Positions 10,978-20,189 of a stretch of DNA of 64,000 bases are shown piece after piece. The notes beneath the pieces are model-generated. The model saw only the letters and a list, made by a program, of their open reading frames with translations, ran no database searches and was not told the origin of the DNA. The stretch's first letter is position 1, and each line of letters begins with the position of its first letter. A program made the position numbers and the translations under genes. Location: contig NZ_AP012322.1 of assembly GCF_001025155.1 (NCBI RefSeq), forward strand, positions 1 to 64,000. Direction: 5' to 3'. This stretch comes from Bifidobacterium angulatum DSM 20098 = JCM 7096. GTDB lineage: Bacteria; Actinomycetota; Actinomycetes; Actinomycetales; Bifidobacteriaceae.

Positions 10978-11160
10978 AAACAGAAGGCTCGATGAGGAGG
11001 ACCTCATTGAACTCAAAACCAAACAAGTAAACGCAGAAGTTTGCGGTTTGCCTGAATGTTTGCAGTGATGCGAACGGGCAGGTGATTCACAGATTGAAGC
11101 ACCGAAATCCCTTTACAACGGATCGTGAGGCACGTACCTGCCTCTGAAAGGATTGCAATT

Positions 11161-13927: not shown

Positions 13928-14010
13928 TCTGTTGCTTGTCAGCCGATAGACGAGCCGGAGGTTTTTCTCCTCTCCCCCAAGGCAACTTGCTGCGGCAACC
14001 GTGAAGCTAC

Positions 14011-14044
14011 ACATCCCGTTCAGGTTGAGACCTGGACGGGATGT
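14011..14044 (+). terminator. Terminator-like hairpin after the DUF4032 gene
   Basis: Inverted repeat ACATCCCGTTCAGG / CCTGGACGGGATGT with one G-T mismatch and a 6-nt loop. Only a weak T-rich tail (TGTTGTATATG region) follows. It lies about 85 nt after the stop codon. Confidence 0.6.
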
Positions 14045-14083
14045 TGTATATGTGTACGTATGTGCGCAATGCATGCGCATATA

Positions 14084-14230
14084 AGAAACCCCGGTGCGGT
14101 TGGCACCGGGGAGAAGAAAAAGGAGAAGGAAGAGATGAAGATTGAGTTATGCGAGGCTGTGGAGCTCCGCCCGAATTGCTTCGGTATTTGATATATAACC
14201 ACCCGTTGCTGTGTCTAACACTGGGTTTTC
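14084..14230 (+). ncRNA. Candidate structured RNA, copy A of a two-copy family
   Basis: Non-coding stretch resembling 17778-17928 on the other strand. Layout: GC-rich 9-bp hairpin (14089-14097 with 14103-14111, loop GGTTG), purine-rich linker AGAAAAAGGAGA, an ATT-A-TTAT block, a small hairpin CCGAA/TTCGG (14171-14175 with 14180-14184, loop TTGC), then TATATAACC and a conserved CGTT-CTGTG. Relative to copy B the closing pair of the first hairpin changes from C-G to G-C, keeping pairing, and the second stem differs in sequence but still folds. It sits between convergent genes, so it is not an obvious leader of a + strand gene. A MITE is an alternative. Confidence 0.5.
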
Positions 14231-14264
14231 CTGGAAGTTCACCGCTATACGCTGAGAAAAGCCA

Positions 14265-14297
14265 TAAAAAATCGTCCCATGGATTCCATGGGACGAT
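14265..14297 (-). terminator. Intrinsic terminator of the RlmB-type gene
   Basis: Perfect 12-bp stem ATCGTCCCATGG (14271-14282) with CCATGGGACGAT (14286-14297), loop ATT. Read on the minus strand it is followed by a T6 run, 30 nt after the stop codon. Confidence 0.88.
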
Positions 14298-14327
14298 ACG
14301 AAATGGTTTGCCTCCTTGCAGGAGAAG

Positions 14328-15320
14328 TCAGCGGTCAGCTGCCTTACGGCGTTCGTTGGCCACGGCATACAGGCTGATGCCGGCCGCGACGGACGCGTTC
14401 AGGGACTCCACCTGACTGGAGATCGGAATGCCGGCGATGGCGTCGCACGCCTCACGAACCAGACGGCTGAGACCCTTGCCTTCCGAGCCGAGCACCACTA
14501 CCAGCGGATCGGTTTCGAAACCGGTTTCGCCAACCAGCTTGTCGCCGCCGCCGTCAAGACCCACCACATAGTAGCCGCGAGCCTTCAACGCTTCGATGGC
14601 CTTGGTGAGGTTGACTACGCGGCATACCGGCAGATGGGCTGCGGCGCCCGCCGAAACCTTCCACGCCGCGGCGGTCACCGAAGCGGAGCGGCGCTCCGGT
14701 AGAATCACGCCATTGGCGCCGAATGCGGCTGCGGAACGAATCACCGCACCGAGATTCTGCGGATCGGTCACCCCGTCCAATGCGATGAACAGCGGCCTGG
14801 CGCTGATGCGTGCCGCAGCGGAGTTCGCAGCTTCCATGGCGCGGGATTTCTTGTCCGCACGATCGGCAAGCTCCGCCAGCGAGGAATACTGGTATGGCTC
14901 GACCTTGAGAATCACGCCCTGATGGTTGCTGGACCTGGCGATGCGATCCATCTCCAGTCGGTCGGCCTCCATCATGCGCAACCCGTGGGCGCTTGCGATT
15001 TTCACGATTTCACGAGTACGGTCGTCATGTTCGATGCGGGACATCACGTACAGCGTGTTCGACGGTACGCCGACGCGCAACGCCTCGAGGACGGAATTGC
15101 GGCCGAATACCAGATCCGTGGTGTTGCCTGTCGAGAACTTGTCGGCGCGGCGTCGAGCCGCCAGTCGCGGATCGGACATCTTGCGTCGGTCGGCGGCCTT
15201 CTTGGCCGCATATGCCTTGTGATACACGCGATCTTCGGCTTTGGGCGTCGGCCCTTTGCCTCGAAGTGCGTTCCTATGCTTTCCACCCGACCCCTTGGTC
15301 GGTCCTTTCTTAAGTGCCAT
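14328..15320 (-). CDS. rlmB: TrmH/SpoU-family RNA 2'-O-methyltransferase (RlmB type)
   Basis: S-adenosylmethionine-dependent methyltransferase of the SPOUT superfamily, most like RlmB, which methylates G2251 of 23S rRNA. The basic N-terminal tail (KKGPTKGSGGKHRN, about residues 2-15) is typical of actinobacterial members. VFGRNSVLEALR marks the SpoU substrate-binding domain. SPOUT motifs follow: DGVTDPQNLGAVIRSAAAFGA (motif 1 region), VVLGSEGKGLSRLV (motif 2) and PISSQVESLNASVAAGI (motif 3). The start chosen gives 330 residues. A GACAAT box 7 nt upstream is compatible with leaderless translation, although the frame stays open further upstream. Confidence 0.9.
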   Translation of the reverse strand: MALKKGPTKGSGGKHRNALRGKGPTPKAEDRVYHKAYAAKKAADRRKMSDPRLAARRRADKFSTGNTTDLVFGRNSVLEALRVGVPSNTLYVMSRIEHDDRTREIVKIASAHGLRMMEADRLEMDRIARSSNHQGVILKVEPYQYSSLAELADRADKKSRAMEAANSAAARISARPLFIALDGVTDPQNLGAVIRSAAAFGANGVILPERRSASVTAAAWKVSAGAAAHLPVCRVVNLTKAIEALKARGYYVVGLDGGGDKLVGETGFETDPLVVVLGSEGKGLSRLVREACDAIAGIPISSQVESLNASVAAGISLYAVANERRKAADR

Positions 15321-15393
15321 GCGTCCCATTGTCCCAGCACCCCGCGTCATACCGGTACGGCGTTGATGGCGTGGAACACCGGTGTCGATACGG

Positions 15394-15472
15394 AACGGCA
15401 CCTTGATAACCGTTGCTATCAAGGTGCCGTTGGATGTCGATTGTCGTTCATTCCACGGTTGAACGACAATCG
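15394..15472 (-). terminator. Two tandem hairpins downstream of the TQ-repeat gene
   Basis: First met by minus-strand transcripts is CGATTGTCGTTCA (15438-15450) with TGAACGACAATCG (15460-15472), 13 bp. Next is AACGGCACCTTGATA (15394-15408) with its complement at 15417-15431, 15 bp. Neither has a T-run. They fill much of the 161-nt gap between two minus-strand genes. Confidence 0.6.
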
Positions 15473-15481
15473 GTGGGCAGA

Positions 15482-17011
15482 TCAGTCGTTGCCGTTGCCG
15501 GTTTGGCAGGTGCCGTCTGCCGAATCGTCGCATTGGGCGTTCTGGCCTTGGCTGGACTGGCCGCTATTGGTGGAATTCTGGTTTTGATTCTGATTCTGGT
15601 TTTGATTGGCGGCGTTCTGCTGTTCCTGCTGTTTGCGTTGTGCCTCGGCGTCGGCCTGCTGCTTGGCGCTGATCGAGGCGTTGACGTCGGATGCGGCCTT
15701 CTGCAATTGGGATTTGGCGTTATTCACGTCGGATTGCGCCGGCGTGGACTGTCCGGCGACGTTATTGGCGTTGCTGATCGCGTTCTGCAATGCGGTGCGT
15801 GTGCTTTCGTCCGCGACCTGGCCGGCGGAATTGTTCAGTACATTCTGCGCGTTGCTGATAGTGGCGTTCAGATCGGCTTTCAATGCGTTGACATCCTTGG
15901 CGTCCTTGCTGCTGTTTGCGGCTTCCAAGGCGTCTTGAATGGCCTTGCGCGCCTCTTTCGCCTGTTTGGTGGCGTTCTTGAAGCTGGTCGTGTTCGTTTT
16001 CAGCTCGTTGGCTTTCATATCCGCGGAGCAGCTTGCCGTTGTGGTAACGGATGAGGCGTTGGCAATAGCCTGATTGAGAGTGGTCAGCGTCTGCTGATCG
16101 TCTACGGTGCTGGCTGCTGGCGCGTTCTGTTGCGCCTGCGTCGCCTCCGCGTTCAGTTTCTTGACCGTATCGTTATATGACGACTGCGCGCCGGTGCATG
16201 CGGCATAGGCAAGCTTTCCGCTGTTCGAGCGGAAGAACATCACGCCAGCCACGATGAGTGCGACAACCGCAATGGCTGCGATGACGATTCCGGCGATCTT
16301 GCCGTTGGAGAGTTTCCTGGCTTTTTTGTTCGGTGCCGTGCCGTCTTGCTCGGCGTCATCGTGGTCGTTGGGAGGAATGGTGGGCGGCAGAATCGTCGGT
16401 TGCGTCGAAGGGGTGATGGTACGAGGAGTGGTTTGGCCGGCTACGCGTGGCTGGGCGGTGTCAGGGGTGAACACCTGCGTAGGCTGGTCGGCCTGATTGC
16501 CGAATATGGTGGACTGCGTGGCTGGCGCCGTTTGCGGCATGGCTTGCGTGGCCTGTAGTTGAGCCGGCATGGCCTGTGTTGCCTGCAGCTGATCCGGCGT
16601 TGACGAAGCTGCTGGGGGCGTCGGCATAGTGGGGAACGCCTGCGTGGGTTGCGATGCGATGGGGAACGCCTGCGTGGGCTGTGGCATGGCCTGCGTGGGC
16701 TGTTGTGCGGCTGATGTCGTCTGCGGCATGGCTTGTGTGGGTTGCGCGGCCGAGGGTGCCGTGCCCGGTGCGGCAAAGTCCTCGAGATCCCATAGCGGCG
16801 GCATGGCCTGTGTCTCGCCTAGCGATGCGGAACTGGGCGGGGTTTCCGGGGTCGCTGCGGTATTCGATACCGGATTCGAGCTGGTGGGGAACGCCTGCGT
16901 CGCTTCGCTGTTCTGCGATTGATTCAGCACAGTGGTTTCCTCGTCGGACGGACGATTGGCGCGAGGCTGACGTTGAAAATCGAAGTGGAACTCGCCACTG
17001 GGGTCGTTCAT
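15482..17011 (-). CDS. Single-pass membrane protein with TQ[A/V][M/F] repeats
   Basis: No family recognised with certainty. In 509 residues: a cytoplasmic-looking, Pro/Gln/Thr-rich N-terminal half with nine copies of T-Q-(A/V)-(M/F)-(P/T) between about residues 37 and 185, plus DEETTVL near residue 26; a basic patch (KKARKLSNGK); one transmembrane helix (IAGIVIAAIAVVALIVAGVMFF, marking about 246-267); then an alanine/asparagine-rich helical, probably coiled-coil, extracellular region with four cysteines and an NQ-repeat tail. Ribosome site AAGGAG. The threonine repeats resemble Ser/Thr-kinase or FHA-domain target sites, which is inference. It is 68 nt from dcd. Confidence 0.75.
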   Translation of the reverse strand: MNDPSGEFHFDFQRQPRANRPSDEETTVLNQSQNSEATQAFPTSSNPVSNTAATPETPPSSASLGETQAMPPLWDLEDFAAPGTAPSAAQPTQAMPQTTSAAQQPTQAMPQPTQAFPIASQPTQAFPTMPTPPAASSTPDQLQATQAMPAQLQATQAMPQTAPATQSTIFGNQADQPTQVFTPDTAQPRVAGQTTPRTITPSTQPTILPPTIPPNDHDDAEQDGTAPNKKARKLSNGKIAGIVIAAIAVVALIVAGVMFFRSNSGKLAYAACTGAQSSYNDTVKKLNAEATQAQQNAPAASTVDDQQTLTTLNQAIANASSVTTTASCSADMKANELKTNTTSFKNATKQAKEARKAIQDALEAANSSKDAKDVNALKADLNATISNAQNVLNNSAGQVADESTRTALQNAISNANNVAGQSTPAQSDVNNAKSQLQKAASDVNASISAKQQADAEAQRKQQEQQNAANQNQNQNQNQNSTNSGQSSQGQNAQCDDSADGTCQTGNGND

Positions 17012-17079
17012 GCTTATCTCCTTGTATATGCAAAGGCGGCCGGTGAAGGCCGCCGAAACGAAATATCGGATACCGCGAG

Positions 17080-17661
17080 TCAGTCGGTGATGCGCGCGCG
17101 GTAGAAGTTCTCATAGGAACGGCTCGGCGTCGGGCCGCGCTGCCCCTGGTAATGCGATCCGGTGCCGGCGGACCCGTACGGGTGTTCCGCCGGGGAGCTG
17201 AGCTGGAAGAAGCACATCTGACCGATTTTCATGCCAGGCCACAGCTTGACCGGTAGCGTGGAGACGTTGGACAGTTCCAACGTGATATGCCCCTCAAAAC
17301 CGGGGTCGATGAATCCGGCTGTGGAATGCGTCAGGATTCCCAGGCGTCCAAGCGAGCTTTTGCCTTCCAGGCGAGCCGCGATGCTGGCATCGAGTTTGAC
17401 ATACTCCCAAGTGGATCCCAACGCGAATTCCCCCGGATGCAGGATCCACGGCTCGTCCGCCTTGACCTCGAACTGTTCGGTCAGCTCGCCCTGGTTTTCG
17501 GCGGGATCGACATAGGTGTAGGCGTGATTGTTGAACAAACGGAAGAACCGGTCGAGCCTGACGTCGATTGAGGCAGGCTGCACCATCTCCGGCGTCCATG
17601 GATCCAATGAAATATGTCCTTCGGCCTGTGCGGTCAGAATGTCGCGGTCGGACAACAGCAT
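17080..17661 (-). CDS. dcd: dCTP deaminase
   Basis: Deaminates dCTP in the pyrimidine deoxynucleotide pathway; some actinobacterial members also hydrolyse the product to dUMP. The 193-residue protein starts [15 protein letters not shown], and an SD-like GAGGAG precedes this ATG, so the open frame five codons upstream is not used. Conserved family segments: [39 protein letters not shown] (marking about 85-108) and [20 protein letters not shown], which contains the catalytic Glu region. Whether it is mono- or bifunctional cannot be decided from motifs alone. Confidence 0.95.
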
Positions 17662-17777
17662 GAGAGCTCCTCGCAAATGGAAACGATACTGACCGCCAGT
17701 CTAGTGCCTGCCGTCTATCGCGGTTGCGATAAGGACGTTTGGCATAATGCGCGGTATTGAGGAATTCTCAGGTATTT

Positions 17778-17928
17778 ATCAGATAACCGTATCGGTAAGC
17801 ACAGGAACGTGAGGTTATATAGGACCTGTCGAAAGCAATCGACCCGGGCCATATGGCTCCGATAATTGAATCTTCTTCTTCTCTCCTTTTTCTGTCCCCG
17901 GTGGCGACCCCACCGGGGTTTCCTTTGT
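17778..17928 (-). ncRNA. Candidate structured RNA, copy B of a two-copy family
   Basis: On the minus strand this repeats the layout of 14084-14230: GAAACCCC, a 9-bp hairpin CCCCGGTGG/CCACCGGGG (17910-17918 and 17896-17904, loop GGTCG), AGAAAAAGGAGA, an ATT-A-TTAT block, a 5-bp stem GTCGA/TCGAC (17839-17843 and 17828-17832, loop TTGCTT), TATATAACC, then CGTT-CTGTG. It lies in the 319-nt gap between the antiporter and dcd, about 115 nt upstream of dcd on the same strand, so it could be a dcd leader or a separate small RNA. I see no other feature in this gap. Confidence 0.5.
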
Positions 17929-17980
17929 CGGCACACTCGCCGGCATGCAATGCAGCGGTTTGCGAAACGGCATTGCCGAC

Positions 17981-20053
17981 TCAGACTCCCGAATCCGCAT
18001 CCACCTGCATCACGTAGATATTGCGACGCAGCGCCTTGGCCTGCGCACGGGTGATATCGCCGGCTTCGAGCATGTCCTGCACAACGCCGAGCTCGATGCC
18101 GTAGCTGTCCCGTTTGATATCGGCTGCCTGATTGGCGGCCTCGGTGCTTCCCTCCATATTCGGGCGTGATTTCAGCGAGGCTTCGGCTCGACGATAATCA
18201 AGGATCAGTGCGGAGCAGAATTCCGTGTTGTAGGTGTCTTTGGTCATTTCCTCGCTGAGTCGTTCAATGACATGATCGATGGCTTCGACCTGAAGCACCT
18301 GCGTGTGCGCGAAGATCTGATCTTCGCTGACAAGCGGAGTGGTTCGACGGATGCGATTGCCTACGCGCTTGACGATATTGCCCGTTCGATGCTGGAATCG
18401 GCGGATACGGCCGCGAATCTGGGATACGGTATGCCCTGATTCCGGGTTCGCGGACGCATGTCGAAGCGAATTCATGATCTGGTCGAGCATGCGCTCGCAC
18501 GCTTCCAGATTCAGTTCCTGCACAGCCTTGTTGGCATTCGGATGCGCCCTGACCTCGGCCTGCCGGGCACGCACGAATTCCTTCTCCCAATACAGTGCCT
18601 GGAGCTTGAGCTGTTCATAGCCGTGCAAGTCGACGATGCCGGCGAGCTGCTTCAAACGGCTGATGCGTTTGGTGTAGGAATCGATGACCATCAGCACTGC
18701 ACGGCGGTTGTCCGGGGTGATGCGGGTGGTGAGTTCCTCCACCGTCTGTCTCAGCACCTCGATCGTGACCTCGAACATTTCGGACGAAGTGTTTTCGGCA
18801 TGGTTCGGCGCCAGCAGCGGCAGCGTGAAGTTGGCCAGCAGCAACGTCATGACGATGACGCCGGCGGCGATGAAGATCAGTTCATCGCGCATGGGGAATT
18901 CCGCGCCTGCCGCAATGGTGTAAGGAATGGTGAACATCAGCGACAATGTGATGGCGCCTTTGGGGCCGCCGAATGTCATGACCGCGGCGGAACGCCAGCG
19001 GTCGGGCGACATTTTGCGACGCTTGCCGGTTGTGGTGTCGCGCGCGAGACACAGCATGGAAGCCACCCAGATGAAACGAAGCGTGATCACCACAACGGTG
19101 ATCAGCAGGATCACCGTCAGCAGTTGCTTATTGCTGACGTTCGGATCGGACCAGCTTGCCGTCATCGCCTGGGGCAGCAGCATGCCCAGCAGAATGAACA
19201 CCGCGCCGTTCAGCGTGAACGACAGTACTCCCCACACGCTTGAGGACACAATATTGGTACGTGCCACGTTCGGCCCGATTCCGGTACGGTCGAAACGGAT
19301 CAGCAGACCTGCAGTGACTACGGAAAGAATACCCGACACATGGCATTCCTCCGCTCCCACATACAGCAGCACCGGAAGGAACAGTTCCATGAGAATGCGG
19401 GTGGTGGTGTTCTCCCATCCCAGCGAGCGGACGGTTTCGAACAGCCAGTTGATGAACAGTCCGACGATAAATCCGAACGCCGCTCCCCCGATGAACGAGA
19501 CGATGAATTCCCCGGTGGCTTTTCCAACGGCGAATTCCCCGGTGATGGCGGCAGAGATCGCGAACTGGAACCCGACGATGCCCGAAGCGTCGTTGAACAG
19601 GGATTCGCCTTTCAATACGCTGCGTTGGCGCGTGGTCAGCGAAGCCTCTTTGCCTAATGAGCTGACGGCGACGGCGTCGGTTGGCCCCAAGGCGGCACCT
19701 AAGGCCAGTCCGGCCGCCAAGGGCATTGCCGGCCAGATCGAGTGCAGGGCGAATCCGACCGCTGCCATGGTGGCGATGGCCAGTCCGATGGCAAGGGATA
19801 GGCTGAGTTTCACGGTTTTCAGCAATTCGGACTTGTCGATGTCATGGGCTTCGAGATACAGCAGCGGCGCGATGAACAGCACCATGAACAATTCCGGGTT
19901 CAGCTGTACGCCCTGGAAGAACGGCAGCTGGCTGGCAAGGGCGCCCAACGCGATCTGCACGAGCGGCGTGGATACCTTGGGTATGAAGCGACTGAGAAAT
20001 GATGACGCCACGACAATGGCGATAATGCAGAGAATAAGTTCGATTACGGCCAC
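17981..20053 (-). CDS. Na+/H+ antiporter, CPA1 family (NhaP/NHE-like)
   Basis: Membrane exchanger for Na+ (or K+) and protons. The 690-residue protein has about 11-12 hydrophobic segments in the first 410 residues, then a long cytoplasmic helical C-terminal domain (about 430-690) rich in charged residues. CPA1 signatures are visible: GPTDAVAVSSLGKEA, then GESLFNDASGIVGFQFA, with the ND pair of the ion site. It starts at GTG. The C-terminal extension suggests regulation, as in eukaryotic NHE-like bacterial proteins. It is transcribed divergently from tadA. Confidence 0.92.
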   Translation of the reverse strand: MAVIELILCIIAIVVASSFLSRFIPKVSTPLVQIALGALASQLPFFQGVQLNPELFMVLFIAPLLYLEAHDIDKSELLKTVKLSLSLAIGLAIATMAAVGFALHSIWPAMPLAAGLALGAALGPTDAVAVSSLGKEASLTTRQRSVLKGESLFNDASGIVGFQFAISAAITGEFAVGKATGEFIVSFIGGAAFGFIVGLFINWLFETVRSLGWENTTTRILMELFLPVLLYVGAEECHVSGILSVVTAGLLIRFDRTGIGPNVARTNIVSSSVWGVLSFTLNGAVFILLGMLLPQAMTASWSDPNVSNKQLLTVILLITVVVITLRFIWVASMLCLARDTTTGKRRKMSPDRWRSAAVMTFGGPKGAITLSLMFTIPYTIAAGAEFPMRDELIFIAAGVIVMTLLLANFTLPLLAPNHAENTSSEMFEVTIEVLRQTVEELTTRITPDNRRAVLMVIDSYTKRISRLKQLAGIVDLHGYEQLKLQALYWEKEFVRARQAEVRAHPNANKAVQELNLEACERMLDQIMNSLRHASANPESGHTVSQIRGRIRRFQHRTGNIVKRVGNRIRRTTPLVSEDQIFAHTQVLQVEAIDHVIERLSEEMTKDTYNTEFCSALILDYRRAEASLKSRPNMEGSTEAANQAADIKRDSYGIELGVVQDMLEAGDITRAQAKALRRNIYVMQVDADSGV

Positions 20054-20189
20054 AAGTTTCCTTACCTTGGAGGGACGTTGATAACAGTATAGAGACCGGT
20101 TTCCATCAATGTGCCGTCTGTCTTATGCCGTGAGGCGAATCGGATCGCCAGGGGCGGGACGGAGGGGGTTCTGCGATGCTGTGCCCAGG

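Follow-up and report, generated by a model that had tools for sequence, protein, structure and literature searches.

What is encoded by two intergenic stretches of Bifidobacterium angulatum DSM 20098 = JCM 7096 that lie on opposite strands and share an ordered set of sequence blocks? Both (copies A and B) are located in the window, the stretch of 64,000 nucleotides at positions 1 to 64,000 of contig NZ_AP012322.1 that was analysed here. A preliminary description had proposed a structured small RNA with an exposed Shine-Dalgarno (SD)-like purine tract, a cis-leader of dcd or a miniature mobile element (MITE), and had named further homologues, covariation and the ends of a known insertion element as the points to be checked. 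The copies and the ordered blocks common to both were found where it had placed them, and within the first 28 nt there are indeed three differences (C/G, T/C and G/C), the first and third being the partners of one stem pair. Searching the whole 2,021,974-base genome with copy A (14050-14260) recovers copy B at E 1.1e-10 (74% identity across positions 36-164 of the query), and the similarity of the two is thus not due to chance. The two stretches look like genes of an undescribed small regulatory RNA (sRNA) family present in nearly every bifidobacterial genome searched. We assign a probability of about three in four to the reading that they belong to four paralogous trans-acting sRNA genes of ~100 nt, activated by a PhoP-type response regulator (RR), with an exposed tract that would pair with the SD regions of mRNAs.

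The direction of the T-tails and the G-U wobbles indicate that the RNA is encoded on the strand opposite to that first read. At least six T among the 12 bases after the hairpin are found on that strand in 58 of the 58 unique copies and on the strand first read in none of the 58, and the wobble pairs comprise 69 G-U cells compared with 17 A-C cells, which would be G-U if the other strand were transcribed. The gene of copy A, previously given as plus, is therefore on the minus strand, and that of copy B, previously minus, is on the plus strand (Table 1). A terminator scan of 13930-18000 ranks the hairpins of both copies first of 10 sites (shuffle mean 4.8). The GAAACCCC hairpin is the intrinsic terminator of the gene strand, its T-tail appearing as GAAA in the earlier orientation, and the blocks TATATAACC and CGTT-CTGTG correspond, once reverse-complemented, to the -10 region and the promoter-proximal CACAG half-site. 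The structured small-RNA family, with its compensatory changes and many homologues, thus stands, with its strand reversed. Terminator direction and wobble pairs led us to reject a transcript of the strand first read with an SD-like purine tract; what is exposed in the predicted RNA is instead an anti-SD-like pyrimidine tract. The same features bear on the suggestion of a cis-acting leader of dcd on the strand first read: copy B is located upstream of dcd in many species, but its terminator T-tail and -10 box face away from this gene, none of copies A, C and D is followed by it, and the wobble pairs fit the other strand, making such a leader very improbable.

Table 1. Coordinates of the sRNA copies, their predicted elements and neighbouring genes.
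Feature	Position	Strand	Basis or remark
sRNA copy B, predicted transcript ~98 nt	17828..17925	+	5' end predicted from -10 box; fold
Covariance model R1 match, copy B	17815-17927	+	108.2 bits
Direct-repeat array, copy B	17765..17804	+	TTCTCAG-N4-TTATCAG at 17765-17782 and proximal CACAG half-site ending at 17804
-10 hexamer TATAGG, copy B	17818..17823	+	position kept across copies; missed by plain sigma-70 scan
Hairpin 1, copy B, GTCGA-AAGCAA-TCGAC	17828..17843	+	fold and alignment
Hairpin 2, copy B	17845..17861	+	fold and alignment
Unpaired conserved tract ATAATTGAATC and pyrimidine tract, copy B	17862..17895	+	putative mRNA-pairing, anti-SD-like
Intrinsic terminator, copy B	17896..17928	+	9-bp stem 17896-17918, T-rich tail; terminator scan
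dcd (dCTP deaminase)	17080..17658	-	Pfam DCD; divergent from copy B; conserved neighbour by synteny
sRNA copy A, predicted transcript ~100 nt	14083..14185	-	5' end predicted
Covariance model R1 match, copy A	14080-14198	-	94.7 bits
Half-sites, copy A	14209..14236	-	CAG at -35, -25 and -13 from model position 1; -46 half-site not CAG
-10 hexamer TATATC, copy A	14190..14195	-	upstream-region comparison
Hairpin 1, copy A, CCGAA-GCAA-TTCGG	14171..14184	-	fold and alignment
Hairpin 2, copy A	14151..14170	-	fold
Unpaired conserved tract ATAACTCAATC and pyrimidine tract, copy A	14112..14150	-	fold and alignment
Intrinsic terminator, copy A	14082..14111	-	stem 14111-14089; terminator scan
rlmB-type SpoU rRNA methylase, upstream neighbour of copy A	14328..15320	-	Pfam
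sRNA copy C	1993445-1993568	+	covariance model
sRNA copy D	1588022-1588133	-	covariance model

Covariation is evident. In an alignment of 61 matches (58 distinct rows) that had been fitted to the structure, 96.1% of the cells of hairpin 1 and the terminator pair, and changes on both sides of a pair occur in 85 cells (shuffle mean 22.8, none of 500 shuffles as high); sliding the partner columns by 1-3 lowers the paired cells to 23-52%. A MAFFT alignment of 14 sequences gives 97.1% paired cells and 26 cells with two-sided changes (shuffle mean 9.2, again 0/500 as high), and RNAalifold recovers five covarying pairs in hairpin 2. Between hairpin 2 and the terminator, the folds of copies A and B show no pairing. 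This stretch is conserved in the 61-row alignment and, across subfamilies, holds AUAAYU(G/C)AAYC followed by a pyrimidine tract. The copies are intergenic and conserved, with their own promoter (by conservation), a structured body and an intrinsic terminator, as expected of trans-acting sRNA genes.

Homologues are numerous and, in the genomes searched up to the level of the order, belong to one family. A DNA search of 61 genomes of the genus, B. angulatum included, gave a match in 13. The first covariance model (R1), built from 14 sequences, matched 111 of 112 genomes of the genus at a cut-off of E <= 0.01, with up to seven matches per genome; L008, whose 5' hairpin aligns poorly, was dropped from it, and L013, where no terminator was found, was never included. 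Family-wide, 165 of 189 genomes are positive, in 9 of 16 genera. A second model built from 61 sequences matched 33 of 396 order-level genomes (each at least 90% complete), all 33 in Bifidobacteriaceae, and an exact 24-letter pattern matched 13 stretches in 84,980 named species genomes, all titled Bifidobacterium. Four copies are present in this genome (Table 1); a fifth match (E 0.73) is doubtful.

A second subfamily (L048-L057, L062-L064), in many cases located close to a metG-like gene, differs in its terminator stem (CCCGGCGG) and has CCCAUAA ahead of its tract; this motif could pair with the start codon, as proposed for the csRNAs of streptococci. Two further genomes carry pairs of like copies. 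Those of G090 (L066 and L067) are identical, 24 kb apart and each accompanied by dcd and a Na/H exchanger gene, which may reflect either a segmental duplication or an assembly artefact. Those at G004:C1:17799-17919 and 19962-20082 are similar, ~2.2 kb apart and on the same strand, apparently a local duplication.

No Rfam 15 family matches either window copy or seven homologous loci at the curated gathering score, and sub-threshold matches reach only E 0.37-0.44. Elsewhere in the window, Rfam detects a known element, the msiK RNA (RF01747, 57.5 bits), at 11100-11159 (+), where an ABC-transporter ATPase gene begins. Table 2 of PMC5746004 lists RNase P, tmRNA, 4.5S RNA and three riboswitch-type elements in bifidobacterial transcripts, and Table 3 of PMC4338058 lists 11 intergenic bifidobacterial sRNA predictions; the family is absent from these two tables as far as coordinates and names, rather than the sequences of the 11, allow comparison. 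Neither of the two copies of genome G063, at 205982 and 1808862, corresponds to any of the 11 entries of PMC4338058 Table 3, for which the strain or species may differ. Literature searches of open-access papers showed no such family among the entries listed.

Synteny was assessed by tblastn of the window proteins against the sRNA loci. Of the 46 loci outside the metG-linked group, 38 are flanked by dcd; the eight lacking it comprise copy D, L008, L013, L017, L046, and copy A with its G056 and G051 relatives. Copy A and these relatives lie between rlmB and a DUF4032 gene, and the rlmB-type gene has its own terminator-like site at 14297-14271. In the metG-linked group, a presumed methionyl-tRNA-synthetase-like gene, which we name so from its N-terminus, is found in the fetched flank of 8 of 13 loci. 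Inheritance of the copies is mostly in place. A MITE-like mobile element that happens to carry a hairpin would account for the several copies per genome, up to seven, but it fits neither the dcd synteny nor the rigid promoter-to-terminator architecture. No plasmid or phage match was obtained with copy B, and terminal inverted repeats, looked for around copies A and B, do not delimit an element: no pair of at least 10 nt bounds copy B, and copy A is not enclosed by any of the five pairs in its vicinity. The insertion-element origin raised in the preliminary description is thereby rendered extremely improbable.

The upstream regions have a fixed layout. Sixty of the 61 matches were used (L040 repeats the place of L005), giving 59 unique regions, in which positions were counted from the first T of TTATATA (model position 1). 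CAG starts at -46 in 48 regions, at -35 in 50, at -25 in 16 and at -13 in 27, compared with a highest count of six at any position of the downstream control. The spacing is 11 bp for the distal pair only, the next steps being 10 and 12 bp, and the consensus of the boxes is TTcTCAG-N4-TTcTCAG. A weight matrix built from 48 boxes of other genomes, with the copies of this genome left out, scores copy B at 30.5, copy D at 24.8 and copy C at 20.9. The box of copy B is the top match of the window (30.5 versus 13.6 for the next), while those of copy A (12.0 and 10.5) are no better than the best background matches (13.6 and 12.0). A plain sigma-70 scan of 13930-18000 found neither sRNA promoter and one site elsewhere (shuffle mean 1.6); the sRNA promoters have no consensus -35.

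This layout, a CAG-core repeat of 7-bp motifs with a 4-bp spacer at a fixed distance from the -10 box, is that of a PhoP-type regulon and is weak in copy A. The Mycobacterium tuberculosis PhoP site consists of TCACAGC repeats with a strict 4-bp spacer, so that motif length, spacer and CAG core are common to both boxes, and M. tuberculosis PhoP binds three or four repeats more tightly (PMC4832192); arrays of at least three motifs are present in the bifidobacterial boxes as well. The third motif position differs: it is A in the M. tuberculosis box and variable, mostly T, in bifidobacteria, and Asn212, which contacts this position in M. tuberculosis PhoP (PMC4832192), is Ala in the bifidobacterial regulator. 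A further strong copy of the box (19.3) is located at genome position 76513-76534 (-) (loci L075 and L082). It precedes a MacB/FtsX-type permease gene (76400-75072, -) by ~115 bp, which makes this gene a candidate for protein-coding membership of the regulon.

Five OmpR-type regulators are encoded in this genome. The one at 1831540-1832268 (-) has M. tuberculosis PhoP as its closest solved structure (275 bits; the best other molecule, regX3, scores 155), and its recognition helix keeps Glu215, Ser216, Tyr217 and Tyr220 of the DNA-contacting residues described in PMC4832192, with Asn212 replaced. The box before its gene scores 9.7, a value reached or exceeded at 10 of 167,916 background positions, compared with 1.8-2.8 for three other RR promoters of the genome (L084-L086, start codons assumed); the fifth RR (L088) was left out, its start codon not being set. 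We scored 46 orthologous PhoP-type RR loci, comprising the 30 nearest to the query and a further 16 picked from six genera. The matrix maximum is higher than the 95% null point (3.6) in all 46 and than the 99% null point (7.9) in 38, with eight below. In 45 of the 46 this maximum falls between -52 and -39 relative to the start codon (it is misplaced in L111). One locus belongs to genus g13, in which, by elimination, none of the three genomes has the sRNA, so the RR box may predate or outlive the sRNAs. The regulator is found at E < 1e-100 in 165 of 165 sRNA-positive genomes of the family, a count uncontrolled for kinship, and also in 6 of 24 sRNA-negative ones (four of the 24 identified by elimination). 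In these RR loci (1831540-1832268 (-), L087, L089-L118, L161-L176) no more than ~20-30 nt separate the box from the start codon after it, and no SD is evident by eye, so the RR mRNA may be leaderless.

The PhoP-type RR, with this repeat before its own start codon, is therefore the likely activator of the sRNA copies, and it appears to control its own gene as well. A different RR could control the sRNAs, the repeat before the PhoP-type gene then reflecting cross-regulation or a related box. Such an arrangement would sit easily with the presence of five OmpR-type regulators, one of them (L088) unscored, with the scoring of other RR promoters in this genome only and from assumed start codons, and with the modest score of the PhoP-type box here; it is made unlikely by the fixed place of the repeat before 45 of 46 orthologues, by its lack at the three other scored RRs, and by the matching spacing of the box of the closest solved relative, mycobacterial PhoP (PMC4832192). 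A phosphate-type regulator was considered as controller and rejected: the RR in L085 is RegX3-like by eye and its promoter scores 2.6, and a literature search on phosphate-type control returned a single, unrelated review. Two OmpR-type systems of B. longum BBMN68 are reported to be raised after acid adaptation (PMC3517610).

We propose that each sRNA gene has its own promoter, with direct-repeat half-sites for the PhoP-type (OmpR-family) RR, which would activate the copies when its sensor kinase signals. The transcript would fold into two 5' hairpins and the terminator, leaving AUAAYU(G/C)AAYC and the pyrimidine tract exposed to pair with the SD region of several mRNAs, in some copies perhaps also with the start codon, and this pairing would block translation. 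Both window copies contain TCTCCTTTTT in the unpaired tract, sharing 8 of 10 bases with the 16S tail CCTCCTTTCT. Ahead of the core, 17 of 61 rows, among them copy A and the metG-linked group, have CAU, which could serve as an anti-start codon. A search of this genome for the complement of the core with at most three mismatches gave two matches, compared with one in the control direction; by eye, neither is a start region: one falls within a gene, and the second where a convergent gene has its 3' end. RNAduplex energies for the start regions of the 31 called genes of the window are lower than for shuffled ones (-10.26 versus -8.62 for copy B and -11.28 versus -10.15 for copy A), a difference confounded by the selection of the starts on SD strength.

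The same sRNAs could instead sequester a protein, with the AUAAYUGAACC tract as its binding site. In favour of this reading, AUAAYU(G/C)AAYC equals the pyrimidine tract in conservation and has no SD complementarity of its own, and the pattern search of this genome yielded no mRNA target. CsrA decoys have repeated loop motifs and 6S RNA has a long bulged stem; the consensus structure here has neither. Together with the resemblance of the pyrimidine tract to the 16S anti-SD tail in both window copies, this leaves sequestration a fairly unlikely function, and pairing with mRNA the preferred one.

On balance, we lean towards a self-controlling PhoP-type two-component system that, with one to seven anti-SD sRNAs in nearly every species, would form an undescribed global post-transcriptional network, a convergent actinobacterial counterpart of the csRNA and LhrC systems. 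If so, a major gut commensal genus has a family-wide sRNA regulon under one sensor-regulator pair, which would supply the first set of predicted outputs for the bifidobacterial PhoP-type two-component system, with precise testable sites in the boxes, transcript ends and pairing tract. The design of an OmpR-type regulator, direct repeats and a multicopy anti-SD RNA would then occur in both Actinobacteria and Firmicutes.

LhrC has CU-rich motifs that are partly in loops, whereas the CU-rich tract of the bifidobacterial sRNAs is located between hairpin 2 and the terminator. This LisR-controlled RNA of Listeria monocytogenes is likewise multicopy, has CU-rich motifs and is under a two-component regulator, in its case one tied to cell-envelope stress (PMC4132741, PMC5880928). 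Regarding signalling-linked sRNAs in bifidobacteria, the accessible portions of PMC5746004 and PMC4338058 describe no regulatory sRNA family tied to a signalling system. Within the actinobacteria, Mcr7 is a PhoP-dependent non-coding RNA of M. tuberculosis (PMC4038636) and is comparable in being under a PhoP-type regulator; the family model has no match outside Bifidobacteriaceae in the order-level draw of 396 genomes.

A close parallel in design is with the csRNAs, CiaRH-controlled sRNAs of streptococci that are 87-151 nt long in S. pneumoniae and carry an unpaired anti-SD region between stem-loops (PMC3091779, PMC8186281). Both groups comprise several similar sRNAs per genome with a terminator, direct repeats for an OmpR-family regulator that precede the -10 box with a period of 11 bp, and an anti-SD sequence in an unpaired region between stem-loops, and it is from this csRNA design (PMC3091779, PMC8186281) that we infer SD-directed repression. 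The csRNAs have been verified by Northern blot (PMC3091779, PMC8186281); the bifidobacterial sRNAs are predictions from sequence. The features that would indicate homology both differ: the csRNA repeat is TTTAAG-N5-TTTAAG (PMC3091779, PMC8186281) and that of bifidobacteria TCNCAG, and the recognition helix is VVEVYVSKVRKKL in CiaR and AIVESYISYLRKK in the bifidobacterial RR, in organisms of different phyla. An anti-start-codon CAU is present in 53 of 61 csRNAs (PMC3091779) compared with 17 of 61 bifidobacterial rows. The bifidobacterial sRNAs may therefore work like csRNAs or LhrC by analogy of design, a likeness for which we claim no homology.
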